NCBI RefSeq assembly: GCF_000701525.1
Contig: NZ_JNJC01000001.1
Coordinates: forward strand, 186,001 to 250,000
Source of the DNA: Mesoplasma grammopterae ATCC 49580
GTDB taxonomy: Bacteria; Bacillota_I; Bacilli_A; Mycoplasmatales; Mycoplasmataceae
Reading direction: 5' to 3'
DNA length: 64,000 nt
The notes under the pieces are model-generated. The model had not been told where the DNA came from. It searched no databases and saw only the letters and a program-made list of their open reading frames with translations. A program made the position numbers and the translations under genes. Positions 50,201 to 57,214 of this stretch are shown here, piece by piece. Each line of letters begins with the position of its first letter. Within the stretch, counting starts at the first letter, position 1.

Positions 50201-50223
50201 AAAATCTCTTATGAGATTTTTTT
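50198..50223. terminator. Bidirectional terminator
   Basis: AAAATCTC/GAGATTTT around a TTAT loop, between A- and T-runs. It ends the GNAT gene (plus) and the PTS gene (minus); the PTS stop lies in the loop. Confidence 0.85.
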
Positions 50224-52032
50224 GTGCAATTTTTGCATTATTTCAGCAACATGAACAACGTCTAAACCTATAACTATTTGCATTGCTTCAGTACCCATTC
50301 TTTTTATTCCGTAAGAACCAGCCTCTTTAATCTTACTTTCATCAATTTTAGAATTATCTTTTAAAATTAATCTTAGTCTAGTCATGCAATTATCAATAGA
50401 TACTATGTTATCTTCGCCTAATGCTTCAAATATTTTTTCAGCCATTACTTGATATTTATCTTCTGCTTTTGCATTATTTTGTTTTTTATCTTTAGATGCA
50501 ACAGTTACTTCATTTTCTTCTCTTCCTGGTGTTGGAAGATTTAATTTTTTAATTGTTGTATAGAATATTCCAAAATATGTTCCAAAAGCTATTGGTGTTA
50601 ATAATAAAACTCATAATGGGTTAGATGTAATTTTAAACACACCTTCTTTTGAAGCTGCAAATCCTCAAGATTGAGCAAATGATGCAATATAATCAATTAA
50701 TCCTGCACTAAATCCAAATCCTAATTGAATTTGCATACCTGTAGAAATTGCTACAAAAACACCAGCAAGTAACGCATGAATTACTAATAATATAGGAGAA
50801 ATAAATACAAATGAGAATTCAATTGGTTCAGTTATTCCTGAAACAAGTGAAACTAATGCGACCCCGCCTAAGAATCCTGCGATTTCTTTTCTATTTTCAG
50901 GTTTAGCTGTACATATCATTGCTATTGCAATTGCAGGTACACCACCCATCATAACAGGGAAGAATCCTCCTTGGAATAATCCTGATCCTTCAATTCCAGC
51001 AGCAAATGCATTAATGTCACCATTAACAATAGTTTCAGCTCCTGCATTACCTGTTATCGGATCAATTATATGTCCCTGAATAGGTAATTGGAATCAGAAG
51101 AATGTATTTAAAATGTTATGTAAACCAAAAGGTAATAATAATCTATTTAATATAGCGTATATAGCTGTACCAGGAATCGCAACTGCTGGATTAGTTGGGT
51201 CAGCTACAGCTCTTCCAAATAACATTAATACGTACTGAATTCAAGGTCAAATTATTGAAAAAAGTAATGCTGTTGGTATTACAGCAATTAAAGCTACCAT
51301 TGGAACAAATCTTCTTCCACTAAAAAATGAAAGAGCTTGTGGTAATTGAATATCTTTATATTTGTTATAGAAAAACGCTGATAAACAACCTGCTGTAATT
51401 CCTCCTAAAACTCCAATATTTAAAACGTATGCACCATCTGAAACATATTTAATTAGTTCTCCATTTGCTCCTTCATAAGTTGAGTTAATAGGAACATAAA
51501 AAAGTCCAGATAGTTTTCCTGATACTTCAACACCGATTACTTTTCCGGCATCATCAAGAATTGGTTTATAAATATCAAATCCCAAAGTTTTACCATATAT
51601 CATTGATGGTAAACTTCTTTCTACACTTGTTAATGCAATTAATGCAATATAAAATACTGCACTTACTAAAGCTACTTCTCCTCTATGATCTTTTGAAAGA
51701 CCAAACGCTATACCAATTGCAAAAAGTAAAGCTAAGTTATCAAAAACAATTTGACCAGGTTGCTGAATTACAAATGAAATTCAATATCCTATTGAACTTC
51801 CAACTCCATCTAAAATAGCACCTGTCGAATCAGTTGTATATGTAACTCCAAGAGCTCCAAATCTGTTTAAAATAGCGGCAAAAGGTAAAACTGCAATTGG
51901 AAATGCTAAAGCTTTTCCAAGTTCTTGTAATTTTGTTAAAATTTTGTTTCACTTGCTGCCACCACTTGTATTTAAAGCATTCTTTTTTCTATTTTTAGAT
52001 TCAGAATGCTTTTGTTTTAATTGTGTTAACAT
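50209..52032 (-). CDS. PTS system IICB component, probable N-acetylglucosamine/glucosamine type
   Basis: A 607-residue permease. The N-terminal IIC domain has about 10 hydrophobic helices and FGLHNILNTFFWFQ, a conserved pore motif. The C-terminal IIB domain starts near residue 530, with the phospho-Cys in IDNCMTRLRL. There is no IIA domain, so an EIIA must come from elsewhere. The protein brings in a hexose or amino sugar with phosphorylation. Amino-sugar specificity is inferred from nagA/nagB next door. An operator-like site lies at 52092-52105. TGA gives many Trp. Confidence 0.88.
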
Positions 52033-52658: not shown

Positions 52659-53567
52659 ATGAGATATTTATCTTTAACTGCTTCAGAGATTGAAAAACTT
52701 AATTCAAGTGAGTTAATTCAGTCAATAAAAAATTGCGAAGGAAGGATTTTGGTTAGTGAAAATATAGTTACACTTAATCCTTTACTACAAACTATAACAA
52801 ATTCAGAATTAGCTGCCGCAATGGGAGCAGATATTTTATTATTAAATTTATTTGATGCTGAAAAACCTGAAATAAAAGGAATGCCTAAAGAAATTAAACC
52901 ATTTGAATTAATTAAAAAGTTAAAAGAATTTACAGGTAGATCAATTGGTGTAAATTTGGAACCTGTTGATCCAAATTTTTCTGATCAGAATAAAGAATTT
53001 TGAAAAATGACTAAAGGAAGATTCGCAACTGTAGAAAATGTTAAAAAGTTAAAAGAACTTGGAGTTGACTTTATTGTTTTAACAGGAAATCCTGGAAATG
53101 GAATAACAAATGAAGAAGTTGTTAAATGTACAAAAAAAATTAAAAAAGTTTTTAATAACAATATCGCAATCTTTGCTGGAAAAATGCATGGAGCTGGTTT
53201 AGGAGATGCAATACTTAAAGATGAAGAAATAAGAGAATTAAAACTTGCTGGAGCTGATGTTATATTAATTCCTGCACCAGGGACAATTCCCGGAACAACA
53301 GTTGATTTAATATCAAAAAAAATTAATCTTATTCATGAGTTGGGATTATTATCTATGACATCAATTGGTACTTCTCAAGAAGGGGCTGACTCACAAACAA
53401 TAAAAACAATTGCATTAAATGCTAAAATGTGTGGAACTGATATTCATCATATAGGAGATACAGGTTATCCTGGAATAGCTGTGCCTGAAAACATTACAAC
53501 ATATAGTATTGTTATAAAAGGAATTCGCCACACTTATTTTAGAATGGCTTGCTCAATTAAACGATAA
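52659..53567 (+). CDS. Probable TIM-barrel protein of the amino-sugar locus
   Basis: A 302-residue soluble protein beginning MRYLSLTASEIEKLNSSELI. Alternating strands and helices such as GADILLLNLFDAE, GVDFIVLTGNPGNG, NIAIFAGKMHGAGLG, GADVILIPAPGTIPGTT and DIHHIGDTGYPGIA suggest a (beta/alpha)8 barrel with Gly-rich phosphate-binding loops. No catalytic family is recognised with confidence. It stands between the PTS and nagA on the plus strand, behind its own promoter and a motif shared with the PTS gene. Strong AAGGGGGAAT SD. It uses TGA once. Confidence 0.7.
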
Positions 53568-53683: not shown

Positions 53684-53702
53684 CAATATATAACAGGAGC
53701 GA

Positions 53703-54845
53703 TTGTTTATATTAATTAAAAATGGAAAGATTGTAACTCTAGAAAAAATAATCGAAAATGGATATATCAAAATAAAAGATAATAAAATATTTTTAATAAA
53801 TGAAGGTTCTACAATTTTAGAAGGAATTGATGTTCAAGATTCATGAATAATGTCAGGTTTCATTGATTGTCATGTTCATGGTGGATATGGTGTTGATTTT
53901 GAAACAGGAAATAAAAATAGATTTGAAATATTTTCAAAAGTGTTGCTAAAGAAGGAATAACAAAATATTATCAAGCTACAGTAACAAACTGTGAAATAGA
54001 CAATAATAAATATTTAAAAGAATTCAAAAAAATTTATGGAAGACAAAAACGAAGGTGCTAAATGCTTAGGAATTCATATGGGAGCTCCTTTTATTTCAAC
54101 AGAAAAAAAGGAGCTCACGATGAAAAATTATTAACACCACCAAATATTGAACTAACTAAAAAATGAAATGCGATTTCAGGAAACAATATAAAAATAATAA
54201 CATTTGCTTCTGACTTACAAGATGGTGCTTTTACTAGATATTGTATTGCTAATAACATTTTGCAAAGTATTGGCCAATCAAATATGGAGGCTAATCAATT
54301 CAAAAAAAGATTATTTATTATGTGTTAAACATATTTGTCATATTTTTAACACAATGAGTGGTATTGATCAAAGAAGGCCAGGTTTAACGACAGCAGCTTT
54401 AAATTATTCTGATGTTTTAGTAGAAATTATTTCTGATGGTGTTCATATAGATGATGAAGTATTAAAATTAATTTACAAAATTAAAGGCCCAGATCAAATA
54501 TCTATAATAACAGATTCAATGAACGCTAAGGGTTTAGATGATGGTAAATATAAATTAGGTAATTTAGAAGTTATTAAAGATGGTATGACAGCAAAATTAA
54601 GTTCTAATGAGGCTCTTGCTGGAGCAGGAGCAACTTTTGATCACAATGTTAGAAATTATAAAAGAGTTTGTAATTTGGAAATTACTGATTTGGCAAAAAT
54701 GGCTTCAACCAATATTGCTAAACAAATGAAATTATCTGATACAGGACCAATTGAAGTAGGGAAGCTTGCCGACATAGTTATACTTGATAATGAACCAAAA
54801 GTTTTATTAACAATTGGCAAAGGAAAAATTATTTATAAAAAATAA
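53703..54845 (+). pseudogene. nagA: N-acetylglucosamine-6-phosphate deacetylase, frameshifted
   Basis: Over about 381 codons, the length of an intact NagA, five frame segments read as one protein: SGFIDCHVHGGYGVDFE, VAKEGITKYYQATVTNCE, GAKCLGIHM, GAHDEKLLTPPNIEL, and HIFNTMSGIDQRRPGLTTAA onwards. Frame changes occur near 53936-53939, 54026-54032, 54103-54109 and 54302-54308, each at an A-run, alternately minus and plus one. Zinc ligands also changed: HLEGPF is HMGAPF and GHS is GQS. The last 213 residues are open from 54204. The start is uncertain (TTG, or a nearby non-ATG). NagA removes acetate from GlcNAc-6-P. Confidence 0.85.
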
Positions 54846-54870
54846 AATAGTAATTTAATTACTATTTTTT
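54844..54870. terminator. Bidirectional terminator
   Basis: AATAGTAATTTAATTACTATT is a perfect palindrome with T-runs on both strands, between nagA and cutC. Confidence 0.75.
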
Positions 54871-55527
54871 TACTATTTTTTTAAATTTGTTTATTTTATC
54901 AATATCTATTCCTGAGTTTCAAGTTCCATCAATTCTTGCAGCTGTACCTATATGAATTTCATCTGCGACTGGTATTATTTTTAAAATATTTTTTTCATTA
55001 ACTCCGCCACCCGCTAAAACTGTCACTTTATTTAAATTTTTAATTTTATTCAAATTTTCTGTATTTAACTCTATTGTTTCACCACACGCTGTCAATACTG
55101 TATTAACGCCCAATGAGTAAAGAGTTTCAATTCCTTTTTCAAAATTTTTAACTTGATCAAACGCTTTATGAAATGTTACGGTTTTATCACCTTTTAATTT
55201 CATTATTTTTTTCATTCTGTCTATATTTATTTCGCCTTCAGGAGTAATTATACCTACCACTATACCTGATACTTTTGTATTTTTAATATATTTTAAATCT
55301 TTTAGCATTTTTTCAAATTCATCTTCTGTATAATAAAAATCTCTTGCTGAAGGTCTTAAAATTACATTTACTGGTAACTTAGAATTTTCACCAGCTTGCT
55401 TAATTTCTTCATAGCTTGGAGTTAATCCGCCAACTTCAAGACTTGTGCAAAATTCAATACGATCAGCATTTGACTTATTTATATGTAAAATATCTTCTAA
55501 ATTTTTTGCAATAATTTCTAATATCAT
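54862..55527 (-). CDS. cutC: CutC-family TIM-barrel protein
   Basis: A 221-residue protein beginning MILEIIAKNLEDILHINKSN. The CutC hallmarks are ADRIEFCTSLEVGGLTPS near 21-38, VNVILRPSARDFYYTEDE near 53-70, VTFHKAFDQVKN and TVLAGGGVNEKN. CutC was first linked to copper tolerance, but the family is often next to amino-sugar genes. It is two bases after nagB, so it is co-translated with it. The role here is probably in sugar metabolism; that is inference. AGGAAAC is the SD and overlaps the nagB stop. Confidence 0.92.
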
Positions 55528-55529
55528 AA

Positions 55530-56255
55530 TTATTTGTTTCCTAACTGAGATGCAGCTTCTTCATCTACTATAACAATCACATTTGAGTGTTGTTGTAATA
55601 TTGTACAAGGTCACTCAACAGAAATTTCGCCTTGAACTAAATGCTTTATTGCTTTAGATTTATTTTTACCTGTTGCTAACAAAATTATTTCTTTAGCATT
55701 CATAATTGATTTAAGGCCCATAGAAATTGCTTTTTTTGGAACTTCATCAATATTTGTAAATAATCTAGAATTTGCTTTTATTGTTGATTCAGTTAATTTT
55801 ACTTCTGAAGTTAATGACTCAAAATCTGTATAAGGTTCGTTAAATCCAATATGGCCATTTATTCCTAAACCCAATATTTGTAAATCAACCCCACCATTTT
55901 TACTAATTAAAGAATCATATTCTGAAGGATTTTCAACATTTATGCCACTTGGAACATGTGTATTATTTAAATCAATATTAATATGATTAAACAATTTGTC
56001 ATTCATAAAATATCTATAAGATTGACTGTGTGTTGGTTCAAGTCCTTTATATTCATCTAAATTAAAAGTTTTAACTAATGCAAAATCAACTTCTCCTTGA
56101 TTGTAAAAATTTATCAAATTATTATATAAAGGTATTGGAGTAAAACCTGTTGCTAATCCAAGCACTATATTATTTTTTTCTTTTATTTTTTTTATTACTA
56201 TTTGCGAAGCTTCAAGTCCGACTTGCTCTTCATTTTCAAGTTTAATTACTTTCAT
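55530..56255 (-). CDS. nagB: Glucosamine-6-phosphate deaminase
   Basis: A 241-residue enzyme converting GlcN-6-P to fructose-6-P and ammonia, feeding glycolysis. GLATGFTPIPLYN near 33-45 binds phosphate, FNLDEYKGL near 65 has the catalytic Asp, and LGLGINGHIGFNEP near 128-141 holds the catalytic His. TGA gives a Trp late in the protein. Good AAGGAGTAAT SD. It is divergent from rpiR, which probably regulates it. Confidence 0.95.
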
Positions 56256-56377: not shown

Positions 56378-57214
56378 ATGAATAAAGAAATTTTTAAAAT
56401 TGATGAAGAAGAAAATATCGATTCAACAAAAAACAATATGATTAAATACATAAATGAGAATACAAGTGATTTTTTGGCAATTAGTATCGACTCTATTGCA
56501 AGAAAAGTTGGTATTTCTGTTTCTTCTGTTTCAAGATTTTCACAAAAAATGGGTTTTAATAGTTTTAAGGATTTACAACTATATGTTAATGAAGAAAATA
56601 TTAAAAAAAATAAAAGCTACATTATAAACGATGGAACTACAATTGAAGAAATCATTGAAAATATTACAACATATAATTCTTATACAATAAAGGAAACATC
56701 TGATATTTTAAATAAAAATGAAATTGATAAAATAACTAAAAAAATTATTACTTCAAAGGTTGTTTTAATATACGGTGTTGGAAGTAGTGCACTTGCCGCT
56801 CAAGAGCTAAATACTAATTTAAAAAAGACAGGTATAAACTGTGCGTACTTTTCAGATTTTCATAGTGTTTTAGCAATTCTATCAACTTTTAATGATGATG
56901 GTTTGGTTATTTTAATTTCATCTTCTCTAAAAAGTCATGAAGTAAAATTTATTTATGATTATTGTTATAAAAATAAAATGCAAAATTTATTAATTACAAA
57001 AGATACAACAATATTAGAATATGAACCATCTTATAAGATAACTTTCAAAACAATTGATCAAAAAGAAAGATATTCATCTATTTCATCAAAAACCGCTCAA
57101 CTTTTTATTGCAGATATTATATTTAATAGTGTTGCAAATGATTTTGTTAAAAACAAAAAAGAATTAATAAAAAAAACAAATGATTTAATTTCTGAATGAA
57201 ATGAAATGAAATAA
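56378..57214 (+). CDS. RpiR/MurR-family transcriptional regulator
   Basis: A 278-residue regulator: an N-terminal HTH domain (SIDSIARKVGISVSSVSRFSQKMGF near 37-61), then a SIS domain near 110-250 (VVLIYGVGSSALAAQELNTN and LVILISSSLKS). RpiR proteins bind operators and sense a phosphosugar. Divergence from nagB and motif copies nearby suggest it controls the amino-sugar locus. It ends SEWNEMK with a TGA Trp. SD is weak (AATGGGGCATT). Confidence 0.93.

Follow-up and report, generated by a model that had tools for sequence, protein, structure and literature searches.

A very probably redundant, recently decayed nagA copy in the genome of a Mesoplasma-like mollicute

In N-acetylglucosamine-6-phosphate deacetylase (NagA) of K. 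pneumoniae, the metal is coordinated by E131, H143, H195, and H216, and N219, H251, and D273 are substrate residues (PMC12409433). The corresponding Glu-122 and His-188 are metal-binding in M. smegmatis NagA (PMC6016474). With respect to broken genes, homopolymer-tract frameshifts in Blochmannia and Buchnera have been described as changes with which gene erosion may begin (PMC3017870), and slippage is known to occur at long poly(A) runs, where 12–50% of transcripts are corrected (PMC5009743).

The nagA copy considered here lies in a 64,000-nucleotide stretch of DNA, the whole of which is referred to as the window, from a Mesoplasma-like mollicute. As for Blochmannia and Buchnera (PMC3017870), the genome is A+T-rich and reduced and the indels are located at A/T runs, but the genes considered rescued in those organisms have one indel and no acceleration, whereas the window nagA has four indels, substitutions, and acceleration. 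We regard the gene as very probably a redundant pseudogene, i.e., a spare copy that decayed recently. A literature search on Mesoplasma, nagA, and pseudogenes returned nothing on this case.

Reading frame of the window copy

Translation table 4 was used, in which TGA encodes Trp and is not counted as a stop; a reading under table 11 is ruled out because the window genes need TGA as Trp. Under table 4, the nagA locus contains short frames that together span the whole NagA length in alignment, and homology is thus full length, as for a functional NagA. The remnant also covers all of the second NagA encoded in the same genome in a frame-aware alignment, and is placed among NagAs in the tree.

In a relative of the same genus (G001), the neighbouring genes, their order and their orientation match those of the window (PTS, DUF7916, nagA, cutC, nagB, and RpiR; Table 1). 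The G001 nagA is 77% identical to the window copy over the frame-aware alignment, but unlike the latter it is an intact single frame with all ligands, comprising 395 codons when upstream in-frame sequence is counted. A broken frame where the same-place ortholog of a close relative is intact is characteristic of a pseudogene. The start codon also appears to be lost, with GTG in G001 replaced by ATA. The sequence AGGAG is found at 53695–53699, upstream of the lost start position, and the only in-frame start that remains is a TTG at 53703, about 3 nt from AGGAG. Instead of the one continuous frame with a start codon expected for a functional NagA, the window copy has four frameshifts and ATA.

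Table 1. Features of the window nagA locus and its neighbours
Feature	Position	Strand	Remarks
PTS sugar permease EIIC-EIIB	50209..52032	-	Intact, same cluster; 94% identical to G001
DUF7916 protein	52659..53567	+	Intact, upstream of nagA remnant; 86% identical to G001
Probable nagA pseudogene (N-acetylglucosamine-6-phosphate deacetylase remnant)	53703..54845	+	Five frame segments; intact ortholog G001:C1:796253-797437
ATA at position of G001 GTG start	53709..53711	+	From nagA alignment to G001
Frameshift 1 (-1)	53934..53941	+	CAAAA context; exact base ambiguous
Frameshift 2 (+1)	54026..54032	+	A7 run; no A7 but a shorter A-run in G001
HMGAPF for HMEGPF	54078..54095	+	Glu metal ligand (E131, K. 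pneumoniae numbering) and adjoining Gly changed
Frameshift 3 (-1)	54103..54109	+	A7 run; A8 in G001, own second copy, and G002
Longest open stretch left, nagA C-terminal part	54204..54845	+	First ~35 codons out of frame; above Amidohydro_1 cut-off
Frameshift 4 (+1)	54302..54308	+	A7 run; GAAAAAG in G001
CutC family protein	54862..55527	-	Intact; 80% identical to G001
NagB (glucosamine-6-phosphate isomerase family)	55530..56255	-	Intact; 81% identical to G001; same rate in the two lineages
RpiR-family regulator	56378..57214	+	Intact; 90% identical to G001

The frameshifts were called by frameshift-aware alignment of the window nagA with six intact NagAs, which confirms the four shifts of alternating sign reported in a first-pass annotation of this DNA, as well as the regained net frame and native length. 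The order is -1, +1, -1, +1, and frame and length are regained because the numbers of +1 and -1 shifts are equal, which is not a sign of function. All four sites are agreed on by five of the six references; with L033, the second falls at 54053. The annotation had further assigned every shift to an A-run. This stands for sites 2, 3, and 4, each an A7 run; site 1 is ambiguous, since a lost C fits as well as a lost A. The window nagA contains three A7 runs, and every one is a shift site.

Based on the A7 runs at three of the four shifts, and on the draft status of the genome (8 contigs), it could be argued that the real nagA is intact and that the shifts are sequencing or assembly errors at A homopolymers. 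However, the other window ORFs contain 88 A/T runs of at least 7 (22 of length 8), every one of which is in frame relative to the G001 orthologs, and none is a shift site, compared with 3/3 of the A7 runs in nagA (Fisher p ~8e-6). Every other window ORF of at least 80 aa aligns to G001 in one frame, nearly all at full length. These one-frame alignments and unbroken runs rule out a general frameshift error in the assembly, which the annotation had already considered unlikely, and its remark that no other window gene is frameshifted holds against the syntenic G001 stretch. Nor are the substitutions at the start codon, the ligands, and other invariant sites, or the threefold rate excess described below, of the kind that homopolymer errors produce. 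Local assembly error at single sites may be present given one isolate's assembly alone, but error as the explanation for the broken gene is very unlikely.

Two further observations concern the surroundings of the gene. Of the seven genomes of the genus, this one and G001 alone encode the DUF7916 protein, beside this cluster in both; it is weakly similar to NanE, which suggests a sugar-phosphate role. In G001, the RpiR gene and pyrG are separated by about 4.3 kb of extra sequence (L063:7868-12147) that is missing from the window, with genes identified by eye as encoding a mannose-6-phosphate-isomerase-like protein, a fructose/mannose-type PTS, and a second RpiR-like regulator.

Metal ligands and the C-terminal stretch

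By alignment, the equivalent of E131 in the window copy is Gly, and that of H195 is Gln (in GQS). The equivalents of H143, H216, N219, H251, and D273 are retained, so that the set of metal and substrate residues of a functional NagA is incomplete at two positions, whereas the intact second copy carries HMEGPF and GHT. The altered ligand positions HMGAPF and GQS, pointed out in the first-pass annotation, are thus real when compared with intact NagAs, and homopolymer errors cannot explain them. In total, 4 of 48 family-invariant NagA sites are changed in the window copy, as opposed to zero in most intact members.

The final frame segment comprises 178 codons with ~79% identity to G001 and a score above the Pfam cut-off, features that could be taken to mean that the open C-terminal stretch makes a shortened or repurposed protein with some function. 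The stretch covers only part of the TIM barrel, however, without the segments that hold the HxH and Glu ligands, and conserved sites are altered here too (G195C, V285A, and S337P). A residual function of this kind is extremely unlikely, and we predict that no active protein is made from the window nagA.

Relaxed constraint relative to ortholog and neighbours

In the tree, the remnant pairs with G001 nagA at a support of 100/100, on a branch of 0.25 compared with 0.066. Relative-rate comparison gives 34 amino-acid changes in the window lineage and 11–12 in G001 (p ~0.001) with either the second copy of the same genome or the nagA of another genome of the genus (G002) as outgroup; with the more distant outgroups G014b and G021, the excess is smaller (28:14 and 29:14). 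For the neighbour nagB, the corresponding numbers are 10 in the window and 11 in G001, i.e., no excess, and the ratios for cutC (18:9 and 12:8) are not significant. The window nagA has evolved about three times faster than in G001, and nagB has not, so that constraint is relaxed relative to both ortholog and neighbours. As a separate observation, the window NagB differs from its relatives in what is likely the phosphate-binding loop, with ATGFTP instead of ATGSTP or ATGSSP, and carries FNEPY in place of their FNEPN or FNEPG, with no overall rate excess.

The pairwise dN/dS of nagA relative to G001 is 0.152 at a dS of 0.77. The window median is 0.103 and several intact window genes have higher values, and this pairwise figure alone is no proof of decay. 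A value as low as this means that decay either began recently or is only partial, and indicates that constraint held on the window nagA for most of the branch after divergence from G001. A rough calculation would place inactivation in approximately the last fifth of that branch. In this calculation, the branch dS was halved, dN was split by the tree lengths, and omega was set to 1 after inactivation, and with near-saturated distances the date is an inference rather than a measurement. An old decay common to the genus was not seen: nagA is intact in G001, the other nagA is the sole one in G002, and in 4 of the 7 genomes of the genus no NagA match was obtained even at an E of 1. Exact DNA searches with the remnant against public genome contigs and against plasmids gave no match, and among named organisms a profile scan identified a single close relative, Mesoplasma seiffertii ATCC 49495.

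The presence of A-runs at the shift sites raises the question of whether transcriptional or ribosomal slippage yields some full-length NagA, as for the frameshifted genes of Buchnera and Blochmannia. In the endosymbiont genes considered rescued, one frameshift interrupts a frame that is open elsewhere, and the rate is not raised (PMC3017870); the tracts regarded as long in the Blochmannia study are of 9 or more. A gene rescued in this manner is expected to have one indel, located in a long tract of A or T, to be in frame elsewhere, and to keep an unchanged rate; nagA has four indels, at runs of A4–A7, and is accelerated. A single transcript would need four corrections of alternating sign, and the resulting NagA would still be without two metal ligands. 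Slippage rescue can be regarded as very unlikely. The preference of the first-pass annotation for decay, over assembly error and over slippage, is supported by the intact syntenic ortholog, the rate excess specific to nagA, the lost invariant residues, and the altered start.

A second nagA and the course of decay

The second nagA of the genome (G000:C1:270956-272104), which was out of sight for the first-pass annotation, belongs to the same family as the window copy and is likewise located beside nagB and cutC, but unlike the window copy it is intact, with all ligand motifs. It is part of a nagB-nagA-cutC cluster in the interval between mnmG and ftsH (both named by eye from their sequences), about 31 kb from the window copy, to which it is ~57% identical. 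This level of identity and the separate clades rule out a recent duplicate. Instead, the second nagA is orthologous to that of G002 (75% identical, 100/100 support), which occupies the same mnmG-ftsH interval, and the genome evidently holds both cluster types, that of G001 and that of G002.

The second intact nagA makes the window copy dispensable, which is the likely reason for its loss. We propose that with an intact gene in the other cluster, constraint on the window copy was lost, and that it would then have gained substitutions at the start codon and metal ligands, together with one-base slippage indels at A-runs in an A+T-rich genome. At sites 2 and 4, the A-run is longer than in G001, as would fit A-ward substitutions that came before slippage; the order of events is inferred.

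The cutC of this second cluster has a one-base frameshift near the 5' end (L036:4906-4950, ~G000:C1:270913; outside the window), with the N-terminal matching residues in another frame. This is a single indel with no rate excess (14:13), and leaves an ORF of 205 codons with a TTG start. G002 has a PTS gene between mnmG and cutC (L038:3753-5738) that is 78% identical to that at 50209–52032 in the window, and no PTS gene is present at the corresponding place in the second cluster (L036:4183-4287). The shifted cutC and absent PTS gene in the second cluster, together with the broken nagA in the window, suggest reciprocal loss. The two diverged clusters for amino sugars may be undergoing reciprocal paring, by which one working GlcNAc pathway would now be split over two loci, with PTS, cutC, and regulator kept in the window and nagA about 31 kb away; we see even chances for this scenario. 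Reciprocal loss is weaker than the main finding, given the lone cutC indel with no rate excess, the ORF that it leaves, and the PTS gene, which may have been lost here or else gained in G002.

Because of the second intact nagA, the growth test on GlcNAc proposed in the first-pass annotation would not report on the window copy, and the organism should not be called NagA-negative from the window locus alone. The decay of the window nagA is ordinary gene decay of a kind already known. With the ortholog, the second copy, and the neighbours as controls, it provides a clear, small case of the death of a redundant gene in an A+T-rich, reduced genome.
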